Shown one piece after another: positions 269-59,847 of a DNA stretch of 64,000 nucleotides (position 1 is the stretch's first letter; each line of letters starts with the position of its first letter). Source of the stretch: Brachybacterium sacelli (GTDB taxonomy: Bacteria; Actinomycetota; Actinomycetes; Actinomycetales; Dermabacteraceae). Location: NCBI RefSeq assembly GCF_017876545.1, contig NZ_JAGIOD010000001.1:1612001-1676000 (forward strand), given 5' to 3'. The translations under genes and the position numbers were made by a program. The notes beneath the pieces are model-generated. The model was not told the DNA's origin. It was given only the letters and a program-made list of their open reading frames with translations, and did not search any database.

Positions 269-1318
269 TCAGCGCTCCTTGCTGGCGAGACGGTCGTGGA
301 AGGTCGGGTCCTTGGGCGCTGTCGGGTCGTAACCCTTGGCCCACGGGACGAGTGCAGAGATCATCTGTCCCGCGATGGGGAACAGGAAGGTCTCGAACTC
401 GTCGCGGGGGATGTCCCCAAGGTGGAGATCGGTGTGCGCCGCCTCCCCGGTGCCGATCACCACGACGTCTTCAGTCCACTCCCGCAGCACAGCGGCCATC
501 GTCTGCATTCGCGGTTCGGTGCCGTCATCCAGCAGGATCACGAAAGAGTCCTCGGTGATGGCGTTGTAGATGCCGTGGATGAACTCGTTGAATTCATAGG
601 CGGAGACTGGCACCCGCAGTGTTTCCAGAGTCTTCAGAGCCACTTCGAGGGTGTCGCCGTACAAGGAGGCCGGGCCGACAAACCGCAGATCCTTGGTCGT
701 GGCAAGTCGCGCCGAGTTCTTGCGCACCCACGCCTCGGCCGCTTCGGTGACGCCGTCGAACCGGTCGATGGTCTCCTGCAGTCGCTTCGCGGCATCCGCG
801 AGCGCCGCCTCATCGAGCGCGCCCCGGGCGCGTCCGATGGCCTGAGCCAGTAGCAGCAAGTTCAGCTTGGTTCCGTAGTAGCCCTTTGTCTTCGCGCCGG
901 CCTCCTCCTCGCCGACCGCGACAGTGAGAACGTGGTCGGCGAGCGTGTCGATCACGGCGTTCTGGGTGCCGCACATCGTTGCGAGAGTGCAACCGGCATT
1001 CTGAGCGATCTTCAGAGCCTTGAGTGTGGACAGACTGCCGCCGCCCTGCGAGACACCGACGAAAAGAGTTCGCGAGCCATCGCCAAGCATCTCTCTCGTC
1101 ACGGCGAACGGATAGACGGCGTGCACATCTAGGCCACTCGCCCTACGCATCGCGTTCTCCATCTGGGCGGCGCTGTGATAGCTGGTACCGGAACCGGCCA
1201 CGATGATGCGGTCAAAATGTTCGCCCTTCACCGGAGCGAAGAGCGATTCTGCGCCCCTACGAATGTCTTGCAGGCGAGCGGGCGTCTCGCGAATGTATTC
1301 CTCGATGCGATTGTTCAC
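269..1318 (-). CDS. SIS-domain sugar isomerase / fructoselysine-type deglycase
   Basis: This 349-residue protein has the double-SIS layout of the GlmS isomerase half, AgaS and the FrlB/GfrF deglycases. A phosphosugar-binding loop (AGSGTSYHSAA) lies near residues 41-51, and a Ser/Gly-rich loop (VGVSQGGGSLST) near residue 90. The GTG start at 1318 has AAAGGAAC upstream. It is the last gene of an operon with all four subunits of a mannose-family PTS. In characterised bacteria such an arrangement imports and phosphorylates an amino sugar or Amadori compound, which the SIS enzyme then cleaves or isomerises. A glucoselysine/fructoselysine-6-phosphate deglycase is my preferred reading. An amino-sugar-phosphate isomerase/deaminase is the alternative. 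It is presumably cytoplasmic. Confidence 0.75.
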   Translation of the reverse strand: MNNRIEEYIRETPARLQDIRRGAESLFAPVKGEHFDRIIVAGSGTSYHSAAQMENAMRRASGLDVHAVYPFAVTREMLGDGSRTLFVGVSQGGGSLSTLKALKIAQNAGCTLATMCGTQNAVIDTLADHVLTVAVGEEEAGAKTKGYYGTKLNLLLLAQAIGRARGALDEAALADAAKRLQETIDRFDGVTEAAEAWVRKNSARLATTKDLRFVGPASLYGDTLEVALKTLETLRVPVSAYEFNEFIHGIYNAITEDSFVILLDDGTEPRMQTMAAVLREWTEDVVVIGTGEAAHTDLHLGDIPRDEFETFLFPIAGQMISALVPWAKGYDPTAPKDPTFHDRLASKER

Positions 1319-1331
1319 GATAATGTTCCTT

Positions 1332-2141
1332 TCAGAGAATGTGGAGAGCGTGAAGGAGGATGCCGGAGGCCAGGGTGGCCAGAGTGATCCGCGTAACGGA
1401 CACTTTTCTCCGGATCAGCAAGAAAATGATCATCACGGCGGCCAGCGGAAGCATCGATGGCAGTATCTGGTCGAGAATCTCTTGGATCTCGACCGAAGAT
1501 TCCTCGAGCGAGAAGGTGACCGTTGTTGTGATCGACAGGAGCGTGGCGACCATTCCTCCCACCACCATCATTCCGATAATGTTTGCAATGGACATGACGC
1601 GCTCCATGGCTCCGGAGGCCGACATCTTCTCGAGAGCTTCGTTGCCGAACCGATATCCGAGTCGCAGACCGTAGTACCGGGTGAGCAGGTGCGGGACGTT
1701 ATAAAGCACCATGAAGAGGATTGGTCCGAGAACATTCCCTTGGCTGGCCAGGGAGATGCCGATCCCCGCGGCGATCACCCGCAGGGTGCCCCAGAACAAG
1801 GAGTCCCCGATCCCGGCGACCGGCGCCATGAGTGCGGCCTTGACGGCGTTGATCGAGGAGGTGTCGAAGTTCTTGGGGTCCTTTGCGTTCTGCTCCTCCA
1901 TGGCGGCGCTTATACCCATGATCGCGGGCGATACCGCCGGGGTGGTGTTGAAGAATGTCAGGTGGCGTTGCAGCCCTTGAGCGCGCGCCTGCTCGGTCTG
2001 ATAGAGCTTCCGCAGTACCGGGATCATGGCGTATGCGTATCCGAGGTTCTGCATCCGCTCATAATTGAACGCGCCCTGCAGTGCGAACGACCGCCAGAAG
2101 ACCGAACGCAGAGTCTTCTTGTCGATGGCTTGGTCATTCAT
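1332..2141 (-). CDS. PTS mannose-family transporter subunit IID
   Basis: A 269-residue membrane protein typical of the ManZ/EIID family. It has a conserved amphipathic N-terminal part (LRSVFWRSFALQGAFNYERM), the conserved stretch SLFWGTLRVIAAGIGISLA, and a hydrophobic C-terminal helix. The ATG at 2141 is preceded by GGAGAG and overlaps the end of the IIC gene by 8 bp, so the two are probably translationally coupled. With IIC it forms the membrane channel through which the sugar is taken up and phosphorylated. The isomerase gene follows after 13 bp. Confidence 0.9.
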   Translation of the reverse strand: MNDQAIDKKTLRSVFWRSFALQGAFNYERMQNLGYAYAMIPVLRKLYQTEQARAQGLQRHLTFFNTTPAVSPAIMGISAAMEEQNAKDPKNFDTSSINAVKAALMAPVAGIGDSLFWGTLRVIAAGIGISLASQGNVLGPILFMVLYNVPHLLTRYYGLRLGYRFGNEALEKMSASGAMERVMSIANIIGMMVVGGMVATLLSITTTVTFSLEESSVEIQEILDQILPSMLPLAAVMIIFLLIRRKVSVTRITLATLASGILLHALHIL

Positions 2142-2922
2142 AGGTGATCTCTCCTTCCACGAGGTTGTCCTGGGTCTCGTCGTCCTGTGTGCCGTTGACC
2201 TCTCTCCGCACATAGAGCTCGATGATGATCGCGAGGCAAGCTCCTACCAATGCGACACCGGTGATGTCTACCTCGAGATAAGCCGCGATGAGGAATCCGA
2301 GGCCGAAGAAGACAGCCGTGCGGCGTGACCAGAGAATGTCAAGCAGTAGCGCGAATCCCACGGCCGGCAATAGATTGCCGGCGACAGTCAGCCCGTCGAT
2401 GATCCAACTAGGCGTGGCATCCATGAAGGCGTCGATCCGCCGTGCCCCGAGCAGGGTGGCGAGGAATGCAGGTATCGCCGTACTGAAGAAGAACAGGACC
2501 GGCGGTATCCACATCATGAGCGTGACTCCACGGAAGTCTCCCCGCGAGGCAAAATGGTCCGCGCGACCGGCGAAGTAAAGGTTGATGATCCGCACGAGCA
2601 CGCCGAGGGACTGTGCAAGCACGGCGACCGGCACGGCGATGGCAAGCGCCACTCCCACGCCCTCGCCCGAAAGGATGGCCAAGGTGGTGCCGATGACCCC
2701 ACCGGTGACCCAATCCGGAGGCGTGGAGCCGCCTATCCCGGCCAGGCCCATCCACACCAGTTCGAGTTGGGCGCCGATGATGATCCCCTGGGTTGGCTCT
2801 CCGAGCGTGAGGCCGACCAGGACGCTCAGTACGAGGGGGCGACCGAACAGGGTGACGCCGAAGATTCGCTCGTCGAGGATTCCGATGCCTGCGATGAGGC
2901 CGATGATCAGCGCAGTCACCAT
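2134..2922 (-). CDS. PTS mannose-family transporter subunit IIC
   Basis: A 262-residue polytopic membrane protein of the EIIC-Man/Sor family. It starts MVTALIIGLIAGIG and carries the family hallmarks GEPTQGIIIGAQLELVWMG and a C-terminal ALVGACLAIIIELYV helix. The reading frame is open further upstream, but that part overlaps IIB and is not protein-like. I chose the ATG at 2922, which sits one base after the IIB stop codon. IIC forms the translocation pore with IID. Confidence 0.9.
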   Translation of the reverse strand: MVTALIIGLIAGIGILDERIFGVTLFGRPLVLSVLVGLTLGEPTQGIIIGAQLELVWMGLAGIGGSTPPDWVTGGVIGTTLAILSGEGVGVALAIAVPVAVLAQSLGVLVRIINLYFAGRADHFASRGDFRGVTLMMWIPPVLFFFSTAIPAFLATLLGARRIDAFMDATPSWIIDGLTVAGNLLPAVGFALLLDILWSRRTAVFFGLGFLIAAYLEVDITGVALVGACLAIIIELYVRREVNGTQDDETQDNLVEGEITYE

Positions 2923-2923
2923 G

Positions 2924-3415
2924 TCACTGGCTCCGCCGATGTTCGAGCTGTTCGAAGGTCCTGGCGGTGTCACGCGGAAGCATCCGTAGATCGATGGCGA
3001 CGCCAGACGCGTGGAGCTTCGAGAGGGTTTGATACTCCTGCTCGGTGACTGTGGTGTGGTCGGTGAGCTTGATGCGCCCCTCCTCGGCCCGTTGCCCGCC
3101 AACGTTCAGCTCGGTGATCGCGCCGTCGCTGGCCTCGATGAGGGTAGTTGCGTCGCGGATGGACTTGAGGATCACCAGCACGCGTGCCTTCTTCGCCTGG
3201 GCAAACTTTTGCACGATTTCTCCGGATTCGGCGACGGAGCGAATATAGAGGGCAATCCCCGAGGGAGTGCCCATTTTTAGCGCTGTTGCCTGGGTGCGAT
3301 CAGCCTGAGCGGCATCGTTGACGACAAGGATCGTGTTGGCGCCGACCGCGGCGGTCCATCCAACTGCGACCTGCCCGTGAATCAGACGGTCGTCGACTCT
3401 GACGAGGTCAATCAT
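2924..3415 (-). CDS. PTS mannose-family transporter subunit IIB
   Basis: A 163-residue cytoplasmic phosphocarrier. The signature VRVDDRLIHGQV near the N terminus contains the phospho-accepting His13. It passes phosphate from IIA to the sugar during uptake through IIC/IID. The ATG at 3415 follows a GGAGAA ribosome-binding site; upstream in-frame sequence is out of family register. It lies 40 bp after IIA and ends one base before IIC. Confidence 0.92.
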   Translation of the reverse strand: MIDLVRVDDRLIHGQVAVGWTAAVGANTILVVNDAAQADRTQATALKMGTPSGIALYIRSVAESGEIVQKFAQAKKARVLVILKSIRDATTLIEASDGAITELNVGGQRAEEGRIKLTDHTTVTEQEYQTLSKLHASGVAIDLRMLPRDTARTFEQLEHRRSQ

Positions 3416-3455
3416 CGTTGTTCTCCGTTTCTTGAAGGTGTTGGGGATCTCAGGA

Positions 3456-3851
3456 TTACGGGGTGTCTTGCAGGCGTGCATTGACGTGCACGACGGCCGC
3501 CGCTCCGGCGGTTGCGAGTTGGGATCCGTCGGCCGCCAGATCGGTGGCGGCCTCGAGCAGCATGGGAAGATTCACGCCAGTCAGGAGGGTGAAATCCCCG
3601 TGTTCAATGAGGTGCCGACTGCAGATGTTGAAGGGGCTGCCGCCCTGAATGTCCACGAGAACGTTCAGATGTTCTTGATGGGATCGGCCGCGGGTGACGA
3701 GATCGGTGAGTGCTCGGTCGGCTTCGTCATGGGCGAGGCCGGCAGTCATCTCGAAGCACTCGATTCTTTCGATATTGCCGATGATAAGTTCGGCGGTCGC
3801 TTTCAAAGAAGCGGCGAGCGAGCCGTGGGTGGCGAGAATGATATTTGGCAT
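3456..3851 (-). CDS. PTS mannose-family transporter subunit IIA
   Basis: A 131-residue soluble EIIA-Man protein, a normal length for a stand-alone IIA. The N-terminal motif IILATHGSLA places the phosphorylated histidine at residue 9, and the family motif VDIQGGSPFN follows in the middle. It receives phosphate from HPr and hands it to IIB. It is the first PTS gene after the GntR regulator, separated by 111 bp that contain three short inverted repeats. The general PTS proteins EI and HPr are not in this window. Confidence 0.9.
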   Translation of the reverse strand: MPNIILATHGSLAASLKATAELIIGNIERIECFEMTAGLAHDEADRALTDLVTRGRSHQEHLNVLVDIQGGSPFNICSRHLIEHGDFTLLTGVNLPMLLEAATDLAADGSQLATAGAAAVVHVNARLQDTP

Positions 3852-48812: not shown

Positions 48813-49802
48813 ATGCTGAATCTTCCGCGACCTCATAGGACCCGGCAGGTCACGACGTTCGAACCGGACAGCGGCCTCAAGGTCGCCTTCGTGGAGCCGG
48901 GGGAGAGCCGCACCGTCGCCCGGATCGACGGCTCGGGGTATCTCGCCCGACTGTGGCTGACCCTGCCGGGATGGTTCTGGGCTCACTGGGAACCGGACCG
49001 GCCCGTGGATCCGGCGGTGCTCAAGCACGTGGTGGTGCGCATCCACGTCGACGACTCCGAGGAGCCGCAGATCGCCGCGCCGATCGCGGACCTCTTCGGG
49101 CTCGGCCTCGCGCGAGTGCGCAGTTACGCCAGCCGCTGGGTGGGGGCCTCCTCCGGTGGCTTCTACCTGACCCTGCCGATGCCCTTCCGGCGCTCGCTGC
49201 GGATCGACATCGACAACCGCGACCCCGACCAGCGCGTGGACCTGTTCCTCAACGGTCTCTACCAGCTGGCCGATCTGCCACCGGAGGTCCCGGTCCTGCA
49301 CGGGTCCTTCTCCACCGGGCGGCACCAGGGCGAGGATCCCCTCACGCTGCTGGAGACCACCGGTCCCGGCCGGTACGTGGGGACCCTGCTGTCGCTGCAG
49401 GCGCAACCACGCTCCTACCTGAGCTATCTGGAGGCTCCCGAACACATCGACGTGGATGGCGAGCAGATCATCGGAACCGGCATGGAGGACTACTTCCTCG
49501 GAGGCTGGTACTTCCGCGAGGGCACGGTGATCGGTCCCGACCACGGAGTCCTCCTGAAGGACACCCTCGACAGTGCAGTGAGCCTCTACCGTTTCCACGA
49601 CACCGACGCGATCTGGTTCGACTCCACCCTGAGGTTCCGCTTCCGCAATCCCTGGGACCCCGACCGTCTGCGCCCCGTCGCACATTCGGCGGTCGCGTTC
49701 TCCTACCTGGACGGTGCCCATCCGGTGCGCGAGGTGCCGGACCGGGACGGCCTTCGGTGCTGGTACCGCTGGCACACCGAGGACCATCCCGCCATCCCGT
49801 GA
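48813..49802 (+). CDS. DUF2961 / GH172 family protein
   Basis: 329 residues with the double jelly-roll family pattern. The conserved core GTGMEDYFLGGWYF contains Glu225, corresponding to the family's conserved TGxEDYF catalytic-region glutamate. The segment FSTGRHQGEDPLTLLETTGPGRYVG is also typical. Known GH172 enzymes act on alpha-D-fructofuranosides or D-arabinofuranosides and often form trimers or hexamers. No signal peptide is present, so it works inside the cell on imported sugars. The ATG has AAAGGGGG upstream. A furanoside substrate is the best guess. Confidence 0.85.
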   Translation: MLNLPRPHRTRQVTTFEPDSGLKVAFVEPGESRTVARIDGSGYLARLWLTLPGWFWAHWEPDRPVDPAVLKHVVVRIHVDDSEEPQIAAPIADLFGLGLARVRSYASRWVGASSGGFYLTLPMPFRRSLRIDIDNRDPDQRVDLFLNGLYQLADLPPEVPVLHGSFSTGRHQGEDPLTLLETTGPGRYVGTLLSLQAQPRSYLSYLEAPEHIDVDGEQIIGTGMEDYFLGGWYFREGTVIGPDHGVLLKDTLDSAVSLYRFHDTDAIWFDSTLRFRFRNPWDPDRLRPVAHSAVAFSYLDGAHPVREVPDRDGLRCWYRWHTEDHPAIP

Positions 49803-49839
49803 GTACTGACTCGCGGTCACCACAGCTCTGGGAGCGCAC

Positions 49840-51510
49840 ATGACTGACAGCTCGCCGTCCGGACGACACCTCCGCAGGCGTTCACTCCTCCTCGCCGGCG
49901 TCCTCGCCCCCGCCCTCATGACAGCATCCGCGCCGGCCACGGCCGACGGCGGCCGTGCCAGCACCATCGCACGGGCCGTCCCGCCTCAGCAGGGCGCCGA
50001 TCTTCGAATGCGACTGTGCACGGACGACCTGAGCCACGGCATTCATCTCACGCTGCTCGGTCGCCTCGACGGGTGGAATGACACGGACGCCTCCGTCTTC
50101 CACCTCGGGATCCGGCCAGACGGCTCCCTGTGGTGGTTCGACGGACTCGAGCAGGACTCCCTGGGCTGGACGCAGGTCGGAGCCGCCGGGAGCGTGGTCG
50201 CCGGCCGATGGAACACCCTCGCCCTGCAGTCTCCGCCGAGCATGGAACGAGCCCTCGTGTACGTCGGGGATCACCTCGGCGCACGTCCCCGCCCGCACGA
50301 GCTGATCGGCCCGATGGGCCCGGTCGGAGTGAGCCCGGTCGACTCGATCACCGGCTTTCACGTGGCAGCCGGCGGATCAGTCCAGATCGACGACCTGACC
50401 TTCACTGATGGCCGCCACGTGACCGAGGCGCCACCTGAGCGGACGTTCCGGATCGGGGATCCGGTCACGGTCGATTCGACCGCGGAGGGCTTGATGCAGA
50501 TGCCCAACACCGCGACCGTGCACACCACGGCTGACAGCCGTCAGGAGGTGCTCGTGGGCTATCCGGTCCACGGCGATGCCACGCACGACACCGGCACAGC
50601 CCTGGCCGCCTCGACCGACGAGGGCCCCACCTGGTCGCGGGTCGACGAGCGCAACCCTTACCCCGATGAGCAGTCGTTCTATCTGTCGACCCTCAGCAAC
50701 GGTGATCTGCTGGCGGTCAGTTTCCACACCTTCATGGTGGACGGCTCCAGCGGCACGGAGGCGATCGTCCCCACCGCTGTCTCCGCCGACGGCGGCCGCA
50801 CCTGGACACATCGTGAGGGGACCATGACGGCGCCGACGGCCATGAGACCGATCTCCGACGGCACGAGCCGTCCCGGTCACGAGCTCGGGGGCTTCGTCCT
50901 CGTCCATTCGGTGCAGGAGCTCGACGGCACGCTCTACCAGTCGGGGTACGGATACTACGAGGAGGACGAACGGTACCGGCAGATCATCCTCGCCTCGGCC
51001 GACGGCGGGATCACCTGGGACGTCCGCGGGACCATCGCCGTCGACCCCGACCTCTCCGACCACCCGCGGTACGAGGGTTTCAGCGAGGCGGGGATCGCCG
51101 CGACCCGCGATGGCGACCTGCTCGCGGTGATGCGTACCGGCAACTATCAGCCGTTGTACCAGGCGACCTCGAGCGACGGGGGCCGCACCTGGACTCACCT
51201 GCGACAGGTCGTCGCCGGCCTGGACGAGACCCCGGTCGTCGGGGTGTTCCCGGACCTGCTGTCGATGCCCGACGGCACCGTGGTGCTGTGGATCGGGCGT
51301 CCCGGCCAGTCCCTCCTCGCCTCACCCGACGGTGAGGGACGGTCGTGGACCTCACCGGTGACCGTCGACTACATGAATTCCGGGAACGGCTCCCTGGTCC
51401 CGCTCGGCGGCAACCGGATACTCACGGTCGGTGACCGTGGTGCCGACTGGACACCGCGCGCCCCGGAGGTCAAGGAGATCTGGGCGATCGAGGCACAGCT
51501 ACTGCTCTGA
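49840..51510 (+). CDS. Secreted BNR-repeat sialidase-like protein
   Basis: 556 residues. A Tat-type signal (RHLRRRSLLLAGVL, cleavage about residue 36) sends it out of the cell. Residues 50-195 look like a concanavalin/LamG-like module. A six-bladed propeller follows, with Asp boxes STDEGPTW (258), SADGGRTW (315), SADGGITW (386) and SSDGGRTW (444) and a degenerate one near 495. This layout fits exo-alpha-sialidases (GH33) but I cannot place the full Arg triad by eye, so another exo-glycosidase of the sialidase clan is possible. Its last 12 bp overlap the convergent GntR gene. Confidence 0.8.
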   Translation: MTDSSPSGRHLRRRSLLLAGVLAPALMTASAPATADGGRASTIARAVPPQQGADLRMRLCTDDLSHGIHLTLLGRLDGWNDTDASVFHLGIRPDGSLWWFDGLEQDSLGWTQVGAAGSVVAGRWNTLALQSPPSMERALVYVGDHLGARPRPHELIGPMGPVGVSPVDSITGFHVAAGGSVQIDDLTFTDGRHVTEAPPERTFRIGDPVTVDSTAEGLMQMPNTATVHTTADSRQEVLVGYPVHGDATHDTGTALAASTDEGPTWSRVDERNPYPDEQSFYLSTLSNGDLLAVSFHTFMVDGSSGTEAIVPTAVSADGGRTWTHREGTMTAPTAMRPISDGTSRPGHELGGFVLVHSVQELDGTLYQSGYGYYEEDERYRQIILASADGGITWDVRGTIAVDPDLSDHPRYEGFSEAGIAATRDGDLLAVMRTGNYQPLYQATSSDGGRTWTHLRQVVAGLDETPVVGVFPDLLSMPDGTVVLWIGRPGQSLLASPDGEGRSWTSPVTVDYMNSGNGSLVPLGGNRILTVGDRGADWTPRAPEVKEIWAIEAQLLL

Positions 51511-52269
51511 GCGCTCTGCCGTGCCGGGCCGAGCGGATCGGCCACCTGCCTCCTCCGGCGCCGAGATGCTGGACATGGCGGCCTCCCGAGCTCCGTCGAT
51601 ATGGGTCTGTACCGCTCGTCGGGCTTCCTCGGTATCGCCCGCGACGATCGCCTGATAGATCTTCTGATGATCGGTGCGGGACTTCTCGACCCGGCCCGGT
51701 GCTCGCAGCGTCGTCTCCATGCCGGAGGCCAGGATCTCGTGGAGGACGATCGTCGTCTGCTGCAGGAAACGGTTGCCCGCCGCAGAGACGATGCTGAGGT
51801 GGAACGCGGTGTCGAGCGTGCGCAGGTGATCGAAGTCGATCTCGTCGGACCGGGAGTAGTCGTCGAGCGTGGTGAAGGTCTGCGTCACCTCGTCCAGGCC
51901 GTCGGGGTCCCGGCGCTGGGCCGCCCATTCCACGGCCGGCAGCTCGAGCACCGCGCGCATCGCGAAGAGCTCTTCGACGCCGATCTCGCGCTGGATCAGC
52001 GCTGCTCGCAGGGAGACCGCGGCATGCGGTTCGGCGACGAAGACGCCCTGACCATGCCGGATGTCGACGACGCCGTGAGCCTGCAGACTCTTGAACGCCT
52101 CGCGGACGGAGGTTCGGCTCACGTGCAGGATCTGGGCGAGCTCCCGCTCGGCGGGGAGCCGATCACCGGGCTTGAGACGCTTCTTCCCGATCACGTTCTG
52201 GATCTGTTCGGTGACCTGCGTCGACACGTGGCTGGTGCTGAGCGGTTCCCACATCTCGGACTGTCCCAT
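51499..52269 (-). CDS. GntR family regulator, FCD (FadR-like) subfamily
   Basis: A 256-residue regulator. The winged helix (LPAERELAQILHVSRTSVREAFKSL) lies at about 38-63, with wing RHGQGVFVAE. The FCD domain has FDHLRTLDTAFHLSIVSAAGN and DHQKIYQAI. It is the last gene of the minus-strand operon 59847-51499, 45 bp after the SDR/dehydratase fusion. DgoR-like GntR proteins commonly control galactonate genes, so it may sense galactonate or its lactone. It overlaps the sialidase-like gene tail to tail. Confidence 0.9.
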   Translation of the reverse strand: MGQSEMWEPLSTSHVSTQVTEQIQNVIGKKRLKPGDRLPAERELAQILHVSRTSVREAFKSLQAHGVVDIRHGQGVFVAEPHAAVSLRAALIQREIGVEELFAMRAVLELPAVEWAAQRRDPDGLDEVTQTFTTLDDYSRSDEIDFDHLRTLDTAFHLSIVSAAGNRFLQQTTIVLHEILASGMETTLRAPGRVEKSRTDHQKIYQAIVAGDTEEARRAVQTHIDGAREAAMSSISAPEEAGGRSARPGTAERSEQ

Positions 52270-52314: not shown

Positions 52315-54243
52315 TCACCATTCCGCGCTCCGTCCGTCCGGGAGCCGCCAATCCGGATTCGTCAGGGTCCACTCCTGCGACGCGGCGACCGCCGAGTCGT
52401 CGATCTCGAGACCGAGGCCCGGGCCCGCCGGAACGTCGAGGTACCCATCGTTCGGACGGAGCACGTCCGGATCACGGAGGTACTCGAACATCTCCGCCTC
52501 GGGGAGGTCGGCGTAGCCGCGGTTGTAGTGCAGGCCGAGCGACTGCTCCTGGACGATGACGTTGTTCGAGCAGGCTGCGACCTGGAGTGATGCGCCCAGC
52601 GAGAGGGGTCCGTTGGGGCAGTGAGGGGCGACCGCGACGTCGTAGGCCGCCGCCACCTGCGCGATGGTCACGAGCTCGGTGATTCCGGTGAGGGACACAT
52701 CGGGCTGCAGGACGTCCACGACCCGAGCCTCGAGCAGTGGCATGAACTCCCTCAGCTCGCTCATGCGTTCCCCGGTGGCGATCGGAACCGTGCGGTCCCG
52801 ACCGAAGAGCTCGCCGTAGGCCGCCTCGTGGCCGGGCGGCAGAGGTTCCTCGATCCAGGCGGGGCGGAACTGCTCCAGCTCTCGCACGAGGGTCCGGGCC
52901 ATCGACCGGTGCACGCGCCCATGGAAGTCCAGAGCAATGTCGATCGAGGTCCCGAACTCGTCCCGAACGGCTCCGATGCGTTCGATGACACCGTCGATCG
53001 CGGCGGAGGTCTCGATCTCGTCGAACTCCTCGGTCGCGTTCATCTTGACCATCGAATAGCCCTGATCGCGCCGGGCCGCGATATCCGCCCCGAGGTGGGC
53101 GGGTCGGTCCCCGCCCACCCACGCATAGCTCGTGATCCGGTCTCGGACCGCTCCGCCGAGCAGTCCGTGGACCGGTACGCCGAGTCGGCGGGCCCGGATG
53201 TCCCAGAGGGCGCATTCGAGCGCCGCGGCCGCCGTCGCGAGCACGGGCCCGCCGCGGAAGAAGCCTCCTCGGCGCATGCGGAGCCGCAGCAGTTCGATCT
53301 GGTCCGGGTCCTCTCCGCGGATGTTCTCGGCCAGATCCTGGATCGCGCCCTGCACGGCATTCGCGCGCTTGGGAAGGATGGATTCGCCCCACCCGGTCAT
53401 CCCGTCCTCGGTGTCGACGCGCACGAAGATCCAGCGGGGCGCGACTCTCTGCGAACGTACGGCAGCGATCCGGTCATTCACCGTCGGCCGCCCAACCCTC
53501 GGCGAAGGCATCGGGACGGCGGCTGAGCAGCCGGTGACGAAGGAGGCGGCGTCCGAGGCGAGGAACGCGACGGCCTCCGCGACCTCCTCGGGACGCCCCT
53601 GACGACGCAGCAGTGACGGCGAGGAGCTGTCAGGGCTGACTGAGATGTCGCTCCTCATCTCCGCCATCCCCGGTGTCTCGATGACGCCCGGGACGACGGT
53701 GTTGACCCGGATGCCGACGGGACCGAGCTCGACCGCCAGCGCACGGGTGGCAGCACTGACGCCGCCCTTGCTGATGGCGTAGGCCGCGTGCTGCGCCAGC
53801 GGCGAGTGCTCCTGGATGCTCGCGACATTCACCATCGAGCCTCCGGCATCCATGACGCGAGCGGCGTCGCGCGCGAGCATCACGGACGCTGCGAGGTTCG
53901 TCTCCAGGACCCGATCCCAGTCGTCGTCGGCGAGGCGGGTGAACGGCTCCCGGCGACCGAGGTGGGCCGCATTGTTCACGAGCACGTCGAGCCGGCCCCA
54001 TGCGTCGACGGTCCGTCCGACGACGCGGCCCCGTTCCTCCCGGTCACACAGGTCGATCACCTCGGCGCGGCAGCGGTCCGGGCCGAAGCCCTCGGTGAGC
54101 GCGCGCAGAGCCGGCCCGTCGAGATCCACCGCGGTCACGGCGCATCCTCGGCTCACGAGCGCCTCGGTGACGGCTCGGCCGATGCCGCGGGCCGCTCCTG
54201 TCACGAGAGCGACCTTCCCGTCGAACCCGGTTCCAGAACTCAT
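52315..54243 (-). CDS. Fusion of SDR dehydrogenase and galactonate-dehydratase-like enolase
   Basis: One 642-residue frame encodes two enzymes. Residues 5-245 are an SDR: TGAARGIG (15-22), NNAA (90-93), Ser142, and Tyr155/Lys159 in YAISK. Residues 255-642 are a DgoD-type enolase-superfamily protein: Lys400, Asp439 and His441 (DFHGRVH), Glu465/466 (IEEP), Glu492 (TGERM), Asp515, and His541 (APHCPNGP). The SDR lacks its usual VDGG ending at the joint. Another frame there contains an SDR-like tail (EGWAADGE) with a TGA at 53474-53476, overlapping a possible GTG dehydratase start at 53481. So this is either a true bifunctional protein (sugar to aldonate to 2-keto-3-deoxyaldonate) or two genes joined by an indel. 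The ATG at 54243 has AGAGG upstream. Confidence 0.85.
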   Translation of the reverse strand: MSSGTGFDGKVALVTGAARGIGRAVTEALVSRGCAVTAVDLDGPALRALTEGFGPDRCRAEVIDLCDREERGRVVGRTVDAWGRLDVLVNNAAHLGRREPFTRLADDDWDRVLETNLAASVMLARDAARVMDAGGSMVNVASIQEHSPLAQHAAYAISKGGVSAATRALAVELGPVGIRVNTVVPGVIETPGMAEMRSDISVSPDSSSPSLLRRQGRPEEVAEAVAFLASDAASFVTGCSAAVPMPSPRVGRPTVNDRIAAVRSQRVAPRWIFVRVDTEDGMTGWGESILPKRANAVQGAIQDLAENIRGEDPDQIELLRLRMRRGGFFRGGPVLATAAAALECALWDIRARRLGVPVHGLLGGAVRDRITSYAWVGGDRPAHLGADIAARRDQGYSMVKMNATEEFDEIETSAAIDGVIERIGAVRDEFGTSIDIALDFHGRVHRSMARTLVRELEQFRPAWIEEPLPPGHEAAYGELFGRDRTVPIATGERMSELREFMPLLEARVVDVLQPDVSLTGITELVTIAQVAAAYDVAVAPHCPNGPLSLGASLQVAACSNNVIVQEQSLGLHYNRGYADLPEAEMFEYLRDPDVLRPNDGYLDVPAGPGLGLEIDDSAVAASQEWTLTNPDWRLPDGRSAEW

Positions 54244-54283
54244 GGCGAACACCTCTTCTCCGCGGCGCGGGTGAGCACGTGGC

Positions 54284-56377
54284 TCATCGCGAACCCTCCT
54301 CGGCGAGGACGGCCACGTCCCACGGTCCGAGCTCGATCTCCTCGCCGATCGCCACCGCCTCCTCGGACAGCACCGAACGGCCGGCGACCGGAACCGGGAC
54401 GGTGGCGGCGCGCGAGGACCAGTTGGTGAAGAACCGCAGCAGCCTGCCGTCCGGCCGGCGGGCGCGGGTGCACCGCACGGACTCCGGGAGGTCGGCCCCG
54501 AGCGGCCGGACCTCGGCCTCTGCGAGCACCCAGCGCGCGACGGAGCGACCCAGCGCCGCGTTCGGCAGTGTGCCCACGTAGGTGACGCGTCCCTTCCCGT
54601 AACGGTTCGTCACCACGGCCGGGAACCGTCCGAACTCGTGGTGGTCGTAGACGGCGAGGGCCTCCGCACCCTCCAGCACCAACTCGTCCATCCACCCCTC
54701 GCCGGCCGCGCCCTCGTCGAGCGGCAGCCCGTCGACGGACGTCACCGGGATCGCGGACTCGAGGTTCGAGTACAGGTTGTATCCCGCTCCGACTCCCGGT
54801 CGCAGCGGACCGGGCGCTCGCTCCCAGCGGGCCCGCCCGAGGTCGTCCATGTACCCGGAGCGGATTCCCAGCACCAGATGGCCGCCCTGCTCCGCATAGT
54901 TCAGCAGGCGGTCGAACGACTCGTCGGCGGCGGCATAGAGGCTGGGCGCGACGACCACCGGGTACTTCTCGAGGTCCTCGAGCGAGTGGGTGACCGTCGC
55001 CTGCGCGCGCTCGTCGAAGAAGGCACGGTAGAAGGTGTCGAAGATCCGCTCGTAGGAACATCGGTCGCCCTGCGCCGTGCCGGGCACGGCCAGGCACGGT
55101 TCGAAGCCGAGCAGATAGCGGGAATCGGGGGAGTAGAGGAAGGCGACCTCGGCCTCGGCCTCGAGGTCGGTGAGCTGATCACCGGCACGCTGGAGCTCAT
55201 GGCCGATGCGCCGCACCTCGGTGAGGTTGCGGTTCTCCTCGAGATCGTGGTTGAGCACCCCGTGCGAATAGGTCTCCGACCCGTGATGGGTGCTGTGCCA
55301 GTGCCAGTAGGCGACGGCGTTGGCCCCGCGGGAGATGCAGGTGTAGGCGGCGAGCCGCCACTGGCCGTCGTAGGCGGGGAAGTTGTGCGCGGGCCCGCCG
55401 ACGCTGATCGGGTTCATCTCGGTCACCAGGAAGTTGCGGTGCCCGCTCGCCCGCGCCATGTCCCCGCGCTGGAAGAGCTGGTACGCGCCGTGGATCCCGG
55501 AGGCGTCGTGGTAGGTGGGGGGATGCCCGCCGCGGGGCGGATGCGACAGCGCCTCCTGGGTGTGATGCGGGAAGTTCTCCGCCGGCACGTCGACGACCTC
55601 CCCGACCGCTTTCCTGTTCGAGTGGGGCAGTCCGTGCCCGCCCACGCAGTCGTGGGTGACGAACTGGTCCTCGCGCAGGTACTCGCGCACGATGCCAGCC
55701 TGCCAGGCGAGGAACTCGGTGACGAGATCGGCTTGGTACCGGCGCCATTCCAGGTCGTACCCGGGATTGGAGTTGCCGCCGCCCTGCGCGCGGTCGCCCG
55801 GGGACCACAATTGCGCGTAGTCGGTCAGGCGGTGCGACCAGAAGTTCAGTCCCCACGCCTCGTTGAGGTTCTCGATGCCCCCGAACTTCTCCTCCAGTCG
55901 CCGGACGAACTCTCGCGTCGCCGCCTCGGAGTGGATGGCCCGGCCCCCGGTCTCGTTGTCGACCTGGACTCCGATCACCGCCGGATGATCGGCCCAGCGC
56001 TCCATGATCCGACGGATGATGCGTTCGGCGTAGAACAAGTAGGCCGGCTGCGTGAAGTCCGCGTTCTGACGGTCCCCGTAGGGCCACGGGGTGCCGTCGG
56101 CGCGAGAGTTCATCACCTCGGGATGCTCGAGGGACAGCCACGACGGGATCGCGTATGTCGGTGTGCACAGCACGACCTGGATCCCGGCACGGTGCAGCTC
56201 CTCCAGCGTCGGTCCGAGCAGGTCGACATCGATGCGTCCCGGTGCCGGCTCGCACATCGCCCAGACGGAATCCCCGATCCGGGCATAGTTGATGCCGGCA
56301 TCGCGCATCATGCGGACGTCCTGCTCCAGGCGGTCGTAAGGCATGTACTCGGGGTAGTAGGAAATGCCGTACAGCAT
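54284..56377 (-). CDS. Beta-galactosidase, GH42
   Basis: A 697-residue three-domain enzyme of usual GH42 length. The start is MLYGISYYPEYMPY. The acid/base Glu142 lies in VQVDNETG and the nucleophile Glu320 in LVTEMNPISVG. The trimerisation domain follows from about residue 395 (VAFLYSPDSRYLLG), then a C-terminal beta domain. No signal peptide is seen, so imported galactosides are cut in the cytoplasm. The ATG follows GGGAGAG. It lies between the importer permease and the SDR/dehydratase fusion gene, linking galactose release to oxidative breakdown. Confidence 0.93.
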   Translation of the reverse strand: MLYGISYYPEYMPYDRLEQDVRMMRDAGINYARIGDSVWAMCEPAPGRIDVDLLGPTLEELHRAGIQVVLCTPTYAIPSWLSLEHPEVMNSRADGTPWPYGDRQNADFTQPAYLFYAERIIRRIMERWADHPAVIGVQVDNETGGRAIHSEAATREFVRRLEEKFGGIENLNEAWGLNFWSHRLTDYAQLWSPGDRAQGGGNSNPGYDLEWRRYQADLVTEFLAWQAGIVREYLREDQFVTHDCVGGHGLPHSNRKAVGEVVDVPAENFPHHTQEALSHPPRGGHPPTYHDASGIHGAYQLFQRGDMARASGHRNFLVTEMNPISVGGPAHNFPAYDGQWRLAAYTCISRGANAVAYWHWHSTHHGSETYSHGVLNHDLEENRNLTEVRRIGHELQRAGDQLTDLEAEAEVAFLYSPDSRYLLGFEPCLAVPGTAQGDRCSYERIFDTFYRAFFDERAQATVTHSLEDLEKYPVVVAPSLYAAADESFDRLLNYAEQGGHLVLGIRSGYMDDLGRARWERAPGPLRPGVGAGYNLYSNLESAIPVTSVDGLPLDEGAAGEGWMDELVLEGAEALAVYDHHEFGRFPAVVTNRYGKGRVTYVGTLPNAALGRSVARWVLAEAEVRPLGADLPESVRCTRARRPDGRLLRFFTNWSSRAATVPVPVAGRSVLSEEAVAIGEEIELGPWDVAVLAEEGSR

Positions 56378-56440: not shown

Positions 56441-57367
56441 TCATCCCCGCACCGCGCCGGCGATGCCTTCCACGAAATGTCGCTGGAGCAGCAGGAACGC
56501 GATGACGATCGGCAGGATGCTCATCGTGGAGGCCGCAGCCATGCCGGTCCAGTCGGTGGAGTTCTCGCCCTGGAACGCGTAGACGCCCACGGCGAGCGTG
56601 CGCTGGTCGGGGCGGGACAGGGTCAGCACGAGCGGGATGAGGAAGCTGTTCCACACCCGCATGATCGTCATGATCACGGCGGTGGCCATGACGGGCTTGG
56701 CGAGGGGGAGCATGATCGACCAGAAGGAGCGCAGGAAGCCCGCGCCGTCGATGCGAGCGGCCTCCAGGAGGTCCTTCGGCATCTGCCGGAAGTAGCCGGC
56801 GAAGAGCAGGATGATCATGATCTGCGCTCCGCCGGATTCGGCCAGGATCAGGCCGGCCAGGGACGTGCTGAGGCCCAGTGCGCTGATCACCTCGAACAGG
56901 GGGATGATCGTGTAGCCCTCCGGCAGGAAGACCACGGCGATGATCGCGCCGATGACGATGCGTTTGCCGGGGAAGCTGTACGTGCCCAGCACGTAGCCGA
57001 TCGTCGATGTCGTGAGCAGGGTGATCGTCACCGTGGCCACGGTGACGATCACCGTGTTCCAGAAGTACCGCCCCATGTTCGCCGTCCACCACGCCCGGGC
57101 GTAGTTCTCGAACTCCGGGGCGCTCGGGAGCAGCGACATGTCCGTGAAGACGGTGATGTTGTCCTTCAACGAGGCCGAGACCATCCACAGCATCGGATAG
57201 AGCCAGGCGAACCCGATGACACCGAGCACCACCGTGAGCAGCGTGTGACGCACGACCCGCCGTCGATTCCGCCGGCGCCGTGGTCGTGCGCGCCGGGGCC
57301 GCACGGCGCGCACCTGGCTCTCGTGGGGAGCCCGCGAGGGCAAGCTGTCCGTTGCGGTCGAGCTCAT
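56441..57367 (-). CDS. Carbohydrate ABC transporter permease (MalG type)
   Basis: A 308-residue membrane protein. The N-terminal 38 residues are strongly basic, then come six helices. The EAA loop is EAARIDGAGFLRSFWSIMLP. I chose the ATG at 57367, overlapping the TGA of the preceding permease (TGATG). It belongs to the galactoside importer 56441-59847. Confidence 0.9.
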   Translation of the reverse strand: MSSTATDSLPSRAPHESQVRAVRPRRARPRRRRNRRRVVRHTLLTVVLGVIGFAWLYPMLWMVSASLKDNITVFTDMSLLPSAPEFENYARAWWTANMGRYFWNTVIVTVATVTITLLTTSTIGYVLGTYSFPGKRIVIGAIIAVVFLPEGYTIIPLFEVISALGLSTSLAGLILAESGGAQIMIILLFAGYFRQMPKDLLEAARIDGAGFLRSFWSIMLPLAKPVMATAVIMTIMRVWNSFLIPLVLTLSRPDQRTLAVGVYAFQGENSTDWTGMAAASTMSILPIVIAFLLLQRHFVEGIAGAVRG

Positions 57368-58320
57368 CACCGCTCCTTCCGTGCGAGCTGGATCCGTCGC
57401 ACGCCCCAGGCCTGGAGTGCCGTGAACAGGAGGATGCCCAGACCGAAGATCACCGCAGCGGCCGAGGCGTAGCCGAGCCGTGGCTCTCCCTCCGCGGCGA
57501 AGGCGAGCCGGTAGATGTACAGCTCCACCAGCTCGGTGGAGAAGCTCGGGCCGCCCTGCGTCATCGCCTGCACCAGGGGGAAGGTCTGGAACGAGCCGAC
57601 CACCGCGATCAGGGTGATGATCACGGCGAAGGGCAGGATCATCGGAACTGTCAGGTGCCGGTGACGACGCCAGAGGCTCGCGCCGTCGACCTCGGCGGCC
57701 TCGTAGAGCTCCTTGGGCACGGTCTGGAGTGCGACCAGCCAGTAGATCATCGAGATCCCCGTCCATTTCCAGACGAAGACGCCCGAGACGGACGCGAGGG
57801 CGAGGGTCGGATCGCCCAGGAAATCTATGGGCTGATCGATCAGCCCGATCGACAGCAGGAAAGAGTTCAGGGGGCCGTCGAAGGGATTGAGGACCATCGT
57901 GAACACGATCCCGACGATGGCGGTGGTGGTGACCACCGGGAGGAAGAAGACGGCCCGGAAGAAGGGCCTGAGCCGATAGGACGCGTCATTGAGCGCGACA
58001 GCGAAGCCGAAGGCGAGCACCAGGGAGGCGGGCACGGTCATCACGACGAAGAGCGCCGTGCGACCGAAGGCCGACCAGAAGTACGGATCGCCCATGACCT
58101 CGCGGAAGTTCCGGAGGCCGACGAACGTGCGGTCGCCCCCGAAGCCGTTCCAGTCCTGGAAGGAGATCACCCACGAGGCGATCGCGGGATAGAACGTGAA
58201 CACCGACGCCAGGAGGATCGTCGGGAGCATGAAGACGTAGCACCACAGGGTGTCGGTGCGCGCGAACCGTCGGCCTCGCGAGGCGTTCCGGTCCGAGAGG
58301 GGCAGCTGCGCGGTGGTCAT
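57367..58320 (-). CDS. Carbohydrate ABC transporter permease (MalF type)
   Basis: A 317-residue membrane protein with six predicted helices. The EAA loop is EAAEVDGASLWRRHRHLTVP. It starts 3 bp after the binding-protein stop and overlaps the next permease. As in the other sugar importers of the window, no ATPase gene accompanies it. Confidence 0.9.
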   Translation of the reverse strand: MTTAQLPLSDRNASRGRRFARTDTLWCYVFMLPTILLASVFTFYPAIASWVISFQDWNGFGGDRTFVGLRNFREVMGDPYFWSAFGRTALFVVMTVPASLVLAFGFAVALNDASYRLRPFFRAVFFLPVVTTTAIVGIVFTMVLNPFDGPLNSFLLSIGLIDQPIDFLGDPTLALASVSGVFVWKWTGISMIYWLVALQTVPKELYEAAEVDGASLWRRHRHLTVPMILPFAVIITLIAVVGSFQTFPLVQAMTQGGPSFSTELVELYIYRLAFAAEGEPRLGYASAAAVIFGLGILLFTALQAWGVRRIQLARKER

Positions 58321-58323
58321 CGC

Positions 58324-59847
58324 TCAGAGCTCCCCGTACATGTCCTGGGTGTAGTTCTCGCCCGGGGTGAAGTTGGGGAAGACCCAGTCCTCGCGGGAGA
58401 CCTCCGCGCCCGCCGCGCGAGCGGCCTCGATGGCGTCGTCGCGCTGCCGGTTCGAGCGATCGCTGAGGTCCTGGAGCGCGCTCCTGACGTCGGTGATCGA
58501 ACCGTCGATGACGCCGCTGACGATCTCTCCCAGGCTCGGGGTCAGAGCCTCCATCTGCTGGTCGGCGAGGGCCACGTCGGGATTCCGCACGACGGAGCTC
58601 GGCATCAGCACCTGTTCCTCGGCGAGTTCGAGGGAACGGCGCCCGGCGGCGGAGACGGATTCCTTCGCGGCCTCCACCGCCTCGGGGTAGGGGGAGGGGC
58701 TGCCGGGGCCGACGATCTGCGTCCATGCCTTCGCCGCCTCGATGCTCCCGTGGTATGCCATGAGGTCGCCGGCGACCTCCGGGGACGTCGTGCCCGAATA
58801 CACGAACATGACGTCGGACATCTTCCCGGGGGCGTAGCCGATCGGCAGGGCCTCGGCGCTGGGCCGCGGGTGCGCCGCGACCCCGAACTCGAACTCCGGT
58901 GACTCGTTCTCCCAGGTGGTGATGACCCACGGCCCCGCCGTGACCATGCCGGCGGAGCTGGTCGCGACGCGCGGCCATGCTTGCGGGGCTGTCAGCGAGG
59001 TCGACCCCGGGAAGATGCTGCCGTCCGCCAGCAGCGACTGCAGCAACTCGAACGCGTCGTACCAGGCATCCGAGGCGTAGTCGAACTCCCCGTTCGCCGG
59101 GTTCGATCCGTAGCCGCCACCCATCTGGGCCAGTCCGTTGATCCAGAAGTCCAGGCGGTTCTCCTGGGCTCCCTCGAGGACGATGCCGTATGCCTGCCCG
59201 TTCCCGGCCGTCGTGATCTTCCGGGCCGCTTCGCGGTAGTCGTCCCACGTCAGCGGTTCGGACTCCGGATCGAAGCCGGCCTCGTCCATGAGTCTCTTGC
59301 TGTACAGGAGGCAGATCTCGTACCGGTTGTCGGCCGTCGCCGGGAACGTATATGTCTTTCCCCCATGCATGTGCAGTCCCTCGAACAGGACGTTCTCGGG
59401 GTACTGGGACTTCCACTCCTCGAAACCCGGCATGACGTCGTCGAGCGGGAGTATCCACTCGGCTTTGATCGCCTGGTTCAGCAAGGGCCCGGGTAGAAGC
59501 TGGACCAGATCGTGCAGCGTCTTGTTGCGCACCGCGAGCGGGACGAGCTCCTCGATCTCGTTCCAGGGCAGGGCGTCGTACTCGGTCGTGATGTGGGAAT
59601 GCTTGTCGCTGTACGTCGCCAGCAGTTCGTTCCAGTAGTTCGCCTTCGTGTCGCCGCTGTCGACCACACGGAAGGTGAGGTCCTCATCGGGGAGGGTGAC
59701 GGCCGGGTCGGGGATCGTGATGAGTCCGGAGTGGTTGCTCTCCTCGGGGGGACTGCAGCCGGCAGCGGCGATTCCGAGGCCGGCTGCGACTCCTCCCGCC
59801 AGCAGCGAGCGTCGGGACGGGCTCTGAAGGAGGTTGTCGGGTCCCAT
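58324..59847 (-). CDS. Galactoside-binding lipoprotein (predicted) of an ABC importer
   Basis: A 507-residue family-1 solute-binding protein. It has SRRSLLAG and the lipobox AAAGC, with Cys31 lipidated. The mature part has LTFRVVDSGDTKANYWNELL. First gene of a six-gene operon that continues through two permeases, GH42, the SDR/dehydratase fusion and GntR. A galactoside substrate is inferred from the downstream beta-galactosidase. Promoter and operator-like sites lie 100-190 bp upstream. Confidence 0.9.
   Translation of the reverse strand: MGPDNLLQSPSRRSLLAGGVAAGLGIAAAGCSPPEESNHSGLITIPDPAVTLPDEDLTFRVVDSGDTKANYWNELLATYSDKHSHITTEYDALPWNEIEELVPLAVRNKTLHDLVQLLPGPLLNQAIKAEWILPLDDVMPGFEEWKSQYPENVLFEGLHMHGGKTYTFPATADNRYEICLLYSKRLMDEAGFDPESEPLTWDDYREAARKITTAGNGQAYGIVLEGAQENRLDFWINGLAQMGGGYGSNPANGEFDYASDAWYDAFELLQSLLADGSIFPGSTSLTAPQAWPRVATSSAGMVTAGPWVITTWENESPEFEFGVAAHPRPSAEALPIGYAPGKMSDVMFVYSGTTSPEVAGDLMAYHGSIEAAKAWTQIVGPGSPSPYPEAVEAAKESVSAAGRRSLELAEEQVLMPSSVVRNPDVALADQQMEALTPSLGEIVSGVIDGSITDVRSALQDLSDRSNRQRDDAIEAARAAGAEVSREDWVFPNFTPGENYTQDMYGEL

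Follow-up and report, generated by a model that had tools for sequence, protein, structure and literature searches.

A single open reading frame on the minus strand of the window, the whole stretch of 64,000 nucleotides that was analysed, encodes an SDR followed by a galactonate dehydratase (dgoD). We consider it likely that a recent deletion joined two overlapping genes, leaving the dehydratase complete and the activity of the SDR in doubt. The fused frame looks like a one-off genetic accident, a lineage-specific lesion, rather than an evolved double enzyme. Two features of the joint go beyond the initial annotation of this DNA: the lost tail of the SDR persists in another frame, and the dehydratase has retained a start codon of its own in the overlap.

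Two enzymes in one reading frame

The fused frame (52315..54252, minus strand) runs from 54252 to 52315 without interruption and comprises 645 codons when read from a GTG; an ATG at 54243 gives 642 amino acids, the span of the initial annotation. The single uninterrupted 642-codon frame reported there is thus real, with the strand, unstated at the time, being minus (54243-52315); the plus-strand translation of the same span contains stops. The residues then listed (Ser142, Tyr155 and Lys159 for the SDR; Asp439, His441, Glu465/466, Glu492 and His541 for the dehydratase) are all present in the 642-residue numbering, and we take their catalytic roles to be those familiar from the two families. 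Pfam likewise agrees with the placing of two enzyme classes, an SDR and a DgoD-type galactonate dehydratase, in one frame, and NCBIfam with the second of them.

The SDR half (53515..54252, minus strand) extends up to a V codon (GTC, 53517-53515) whose aligned counterpart in orthologous SDRs is the V of the VDGG segment. It matches Pfam families PF13561/PF00106, with an adh_short_C2 domain at residues 19-244 (645-residue numbering), and 125 of 243 aligned positions (51%) are identical to the SDR of an Arthrobacter plasmid (locus L043, described below). The classical motifs are in place: TGxxxGIG at residues 15-22, NNAA, and Ser142-Tyr155-Lys159 (642-residue numbering). Among the best 25 of 239 NCBIfam matches no SDR-type model reached its cut-off, the best being NF005559 (glucose 1-dehydrogenase) with 188.6 bits against a cut-off of 215; nor, among the same 25, did any model above cut-off point to the D-galactose dehydrogenase of the De Ley-Doudoroff pathway. 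The SDR adjoins a GH42 gene. The C-terminal VDGG segment, a feature of the relatives' SDRs, is absent from the fusion; it is present in all ten of the relatives' SDR tails that were traced. Its loss had been noticed in the initial annotation, and the doubt about the SDR half expressed there holds: because its orthologues have an invariant tail that is missing here, this half is probably weakened or inactive, though its nucleotide-binding and catalytic residues are kept.

The dehydratase half has a likely GTG start of its own at 53481, which overlaps the old SDR stop (GTGAATGA); the dgoD gene would then occupy the segment between this codon and the end of the fused frame (52315..53481, minus strand), and the homology to dehydratases starts just past the GTG. 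Pfam places MR_MLE_N at residues 272-366 and MR_MLE_C at 392-620 (645-residue numbering). The NCBIfam model for galactonate dehydratase (NF010624, PRK14017) matches residues 261-645 with 446.2 bits against a cut-off of 311, covering positions 2-382 of the 382 in the model. Identity to the Arthrobacter dgoD (L043) is 228 of 386 aligned positions (59%), and the best PDB match is 3rr1 (E 1.8e-104). All enolase-superfamily ligand and catalytic positions (Asp439, His441, Glu465, Glu466, Glu492, Asp515 and His541) are present; we take this set, Asp515 included, to comprise the metal ligands together with the catalytic His and Asp. Judged from its sequence, the dehydratase half is complete and probably active, either as part of the fusion or from its own GTG.

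The joint and the tails of orthologous SDRs

Ten SDR tails were traced in relatives. Five are from orthologues: those of Arthrobacter sp. YA7-1 (plasmid, L043) and Sinorhizobium mexicanum (plasmid, L044), and three from the class to which the window belongs (L165, L166 and L167). A further tail is from an SDR match with no dgoD found in its locus (L164). In the nine traced loci that carry both genes, the SDR ends at its own stop in every case. The dehydratase start codon overlaps this stop in L043, L165 and L167; a stop separates SDR and dgoD in the Burkholderia arboris pair (L047); and in L168 (genome G1007) the two happen to share a frame, interrupted by a TGA. SDR and dgoD are not neighbours everywhere, since a frame resembling an ABC ATPase (by eye) intervenes in L044 and L166.

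The five orthologous tails share the pattern V-DGGR[STG][IL]SRxx-D[APQ][FL][AE], followed by a variable tail, and in all five, ten residues separate V from D. In the fusion the V codon is followed by just two bases (53513..53514, minus strand) at the point where the five orthologous SDRs carry ten codons, and then, from 53512 and in a shifted frame, by D-A-F-A. On the basis of codon usage, motif and spacing, we identify the stretch that begins there (53474..53512, minus strand) as an out-of-frame remnant of the SDR tail; it reads DAFAEGWAADGE-stop in frame 2 relative to the fused frame, and its stop overlaps the dehydratase GTG at 53481 (GTGAATGA). The eleven residues of the joint in the fused protein, PMPSPRVGRPT (53482..53514, minus strand), represent the former SDR tail translated in the wrong frame.

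The tetrapeptide motif D-x-[FL]-[AE] occurs at 23 of 127,978 positions in the six-frame translation of the window. The SDR of L166 terminates in the same GGTGAATGA as the remnant, which otherwise has few residues in common with any single orthologue. The stop of the remnant lies four bases deeper into dgoD than the 4-base overlaps of L043, L165 and L167. A TGA does stand at the usual point of overlap in the third frame (53480-53478), but this frame has no tail motif and its codon use is poor (-7.7); the odd position of the stop therefore fits a slightly different tail length.

Codon usage was scored with a model trained on 43 genes of the window, out of 54 coding stretches called there; the fusion was excluded, as were ten others, for the most part short or weak. 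The eleven codons of the joint score -7.19 in the fused frame and +3.56 in the shifted frame of the remnant. Each equivalent sliding window inside the 43 other genes was scored by a model trained without the gene in which it lies, and only 6 of 15,886 favoured a shifted frame as strongly; an in-frame score as low was found in 22 of the 15,886 and a shifted score as high in 17. Because the windows overlap and the joint was chosen beforehand, these counts are a guide rather than an exact probability.

The simplest account is the loss of 28 bp, since ten codons less two bases make 28. The ancestral state would have been an operon segment in which the SDR preceded dgoD with an overlap of a few bases, an arrangement seen in several relatives. 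Losing approximately 28 bp within the last codons of the SDR would have removed the end containing DGGR and shifted the frame by one, so that translation of the SDR misses its own stop and runs into dgoD in phase. Ribosomes that formerly stopped and restarted at the overlap would then produce one chain of 642-645 residues. The orthologues of both halves are only about 43-59% identical and the parent sequence is not known; the figure of 28 bp therefore leans on the conserved spacing. A slip of one or two bases was also considered, and was rejected because the ten-residue spacing in the five orthologues points instead to the 28-bp loss. An AlphaFold model of the fusion (6 rows) is too poor to judge the joint, with a mean pLDDT of 55.9 and a pTM of 0.41.

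At positions invariant among the orthologues (four other SDRs, L166 being cut off there, and five other dgoDs) the fusion carries a different residue at 13 of 81 sites of the SDR half and at 21 of 159 of the dgoD half. It is the most divergent member at these positions in both halves, and the SDR half is not singled out. This even spread is consistent with a recent event or with some remaining constraint on the SDR; given that both halves diverge, function may have changed. A small deletion at a gene overlap can make a two-domain enzyme frame that looks evolved, and it is the out-of-frame remnant, together with the spacing in relatives, that tells a fresh accident from an established fusion.

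Distribution of the fused frame and competing explanations

The full-length two-domain search proposed in the initial annotation was carried out, and it revealed no second unbroken fusion. Among 38 genomes of relatives, the matches listed, best first, contain an unbroken full-length match in the window's own genome only; the same is true of 394 genomes of the class, searched at a threshold of 1e-104 with scoring of three candidates in each. The genome of the window is included in both sets, which overlap. At strict thresholds no unbroken full-length match was found in 24, 60 and 22 genomes of three families, the searches of 24 and 60 genomes, which gave no match at all, being weak evidence. 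For plasmids, at least 80% of the query is covered in one place by 225 records, of which the 20 listed match in two or three pieces; a scan of genome contigs gave two remote matches only, at 27% identity. Thus the relatives examined do not have the conserved fused architecture of a stable SDR-DgoD fusion family. A literature search found no description of an SDR-dgoD fusion, which does not prove that none is in print; the part of PMC5719810 that was available deals with a Brevibacterium cluster. The pair itself is rare in this group: dgoD relatives (E 1e-60) occur in 6 of 38 genomes of the genus, SDR matches (E 1e-40) in 2 of 396 genomes of the order with six candidates scored per genome (the window's own included in both counts), and, at 1e-38, just one of the 47 genomes of the family, the window's own, has an SDR match. 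Given this rarity, the pair may have been acquired from outside the group.

The reading put forward in the initial annotation is that of a selected bifunctional enzyme, which passes an oxidised aldose directly from the SDR to the dehydratase. Both catalytic sets are indeed present, the SDR half is free of visible erosion, and later steps of the pathway are fused in the proteins of NCBIfam model NF041633 (KHG/KDPG aldolase/sugar kinase fusion). Yet no second example was found among the 38 and 394 genomes, own included; the joint has poor codon use and is a remnant read out of frame; and the SDR is without a tail found in five of five orthologues. Between aldose oxidation and aldonate dehydration there is, moreover, normally a lactonase step. 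With the genes separate in relatives and the joint bearing the signature of a frameshifting deletion, channelling is not supported, and we regard such an enzyme as quite improbable. Separate genes in all close relatives had been named as an observation that would speak against it; the genes are separate in the relatives found, which are approximately 43-59% identical, none closer having been found. The fused frame, the enzyme classes and the doubt about the SDR thus stand from the earlier interpretation, and the channelling enzyme does not. A related case is that of a newborn two-enzyme fusion, in which the loss of the SDR end is tolerated and one chain serves galactoside catabolism with both of its active sites functional. 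We give this only a slight chance. If true, it would capture in nature how translationally coupled genes become one protein through a deletion where stop and start overlap; should both halves be active, it would offer a useful example of how a fusion between nearby pathway steps is born.

It is also conceivable, although unlikely, that the organism has two normal overlapping genes and that the joint is an artefact of sequencing or assembly. The fusion is a singleton in full-length searches and the contig ends look duplicated; in the part of PMC3711429 available, a study of prokaryotic frame transitions, singleton frameshifts are held to be possible sequencing errors or recent indels. The same part speculates that shifts near the 3' end of a gene are more likely to be real indels. 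The change inferred here is 28 bp long and no one-base slip, and a loss of that length is not what a sequencing slip usually looks like. Frameshift-like events, sought with a purpose-written two-strand Viterbi scan that recovered 82 of 120 planted single-base removals, number 3 in 1.264 Mb of the window's own genome against 4 in 0.8 Mb of a genome of the same genus (G021). The assembly is not visibly indel-rich by this measure, and the idea of an indel-ridden assembly was rejected. The scan reported 0 events in the window and did not flag the joint, because the remnant is too short for its penalty. A comparison of protein matches with the same-genus genome suffers from too few shared genes (2 of 382 own genes at an identity of at least 55%; 6 and 10 matches in one piece, 0 in two). 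Lastly, ribosomes could switch frame in a programmed manner near 53513, giving an SDR with its own end in addition to the fusion. The shifted frame does remain coding-like up to its stop; however, a slippery run is not evident at the site by eye, and a switched SDR would still miss the ten residues beginning with DGGR. We consider this explanation highly implausible.

Genomic setting and comparison with known systems

The fused gene lies in a cluster of genes of the same direction. Directly upstream is a GH42 beta-galactosidase (54284..56377, minus strand; PF02449), which suggests galactose as substrate. The cluster also includes the binding protein of a sugar ABC transporter (58324..59847, minus strand; SBP_bac_8), and between the two are permease-like ORFs, named by eye (57367-58320 and 56441-57766, minus strand). 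Directly downstream is a GntR/FCD regulator (51499..52269, minus strand; PF00392, PF07729). Elsewhere in the genome there are two KDPG-aldolase-family matches over the Pfam cut-off, one of which adjoins a sugar kinase (best NCBIfam matches KDG/KDGal kinases, below cut-off) and an idonate-dehydrogenase-like gene (below cut-off), and five DHDPS-family matches. On account of these aldolase, kinase and DHDPS-family matches, a route for 2-keto-3-deoxy acids is possible.

Positions 12932-63684 of the window form a dense sugar-uptake region, with several sets of carbohydrate ABC transporters, an arabinofuranosidase-type domain, and LacI, ROK, AraC and GntR regulators. On the plus strand, opposite the fusion cluster, a DUF2961 protein has as its neighbour a sialidase-like BNR-repeat protein, in which a signal peptide is probable by eye (48813-51510). 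At 269-3571 on the minus strand, genes for the mannose/sorbose-type PTS components IIB, IIC and IID precede one for a GlmS-like protein (below cut-offs), probably as an amino-sugar uptake operon. An SDR match of identical score recurs at three sites near contig ends of the assembly (G000:C1:4807-5532, near the start of C1, and C2:6261-6986 and C2:1721718-1722443, near the two ends of C2), which suggests that the assembly contains a repeat or that its contig ends are duplicated. No Rfam family was matched at gathering thresholds.

In comparison with classical SDRs (PF13561), the SDR half is alike in TGxxxGIG, NNAA and the Ser-Tyr-Lys set, and unlike in being without the VDGG tail. The dehydratase half matches the NF010624 model over its full length; from this family and from 3rr1 the fusion differs by the SDR at its N-terminus. 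The Arthrobacter sp. YA7-1 plasmid pYA7-1a (NZ_CP110115.1, L043) has the same order of SDR and dgoD beside a sugar ABC transporter, but there the two are separate genes that overlap by 4 bases, and the SDR has VDGG and a long tail. The regions 3' of the pair differ as well: in Arthrobacter it is followed by DHDPS-family, lactonase-family (SMP-30/gluconolactonase), kinase and aldolase genes, and in the window the fusion is followed by the GntR/FCD regulator.
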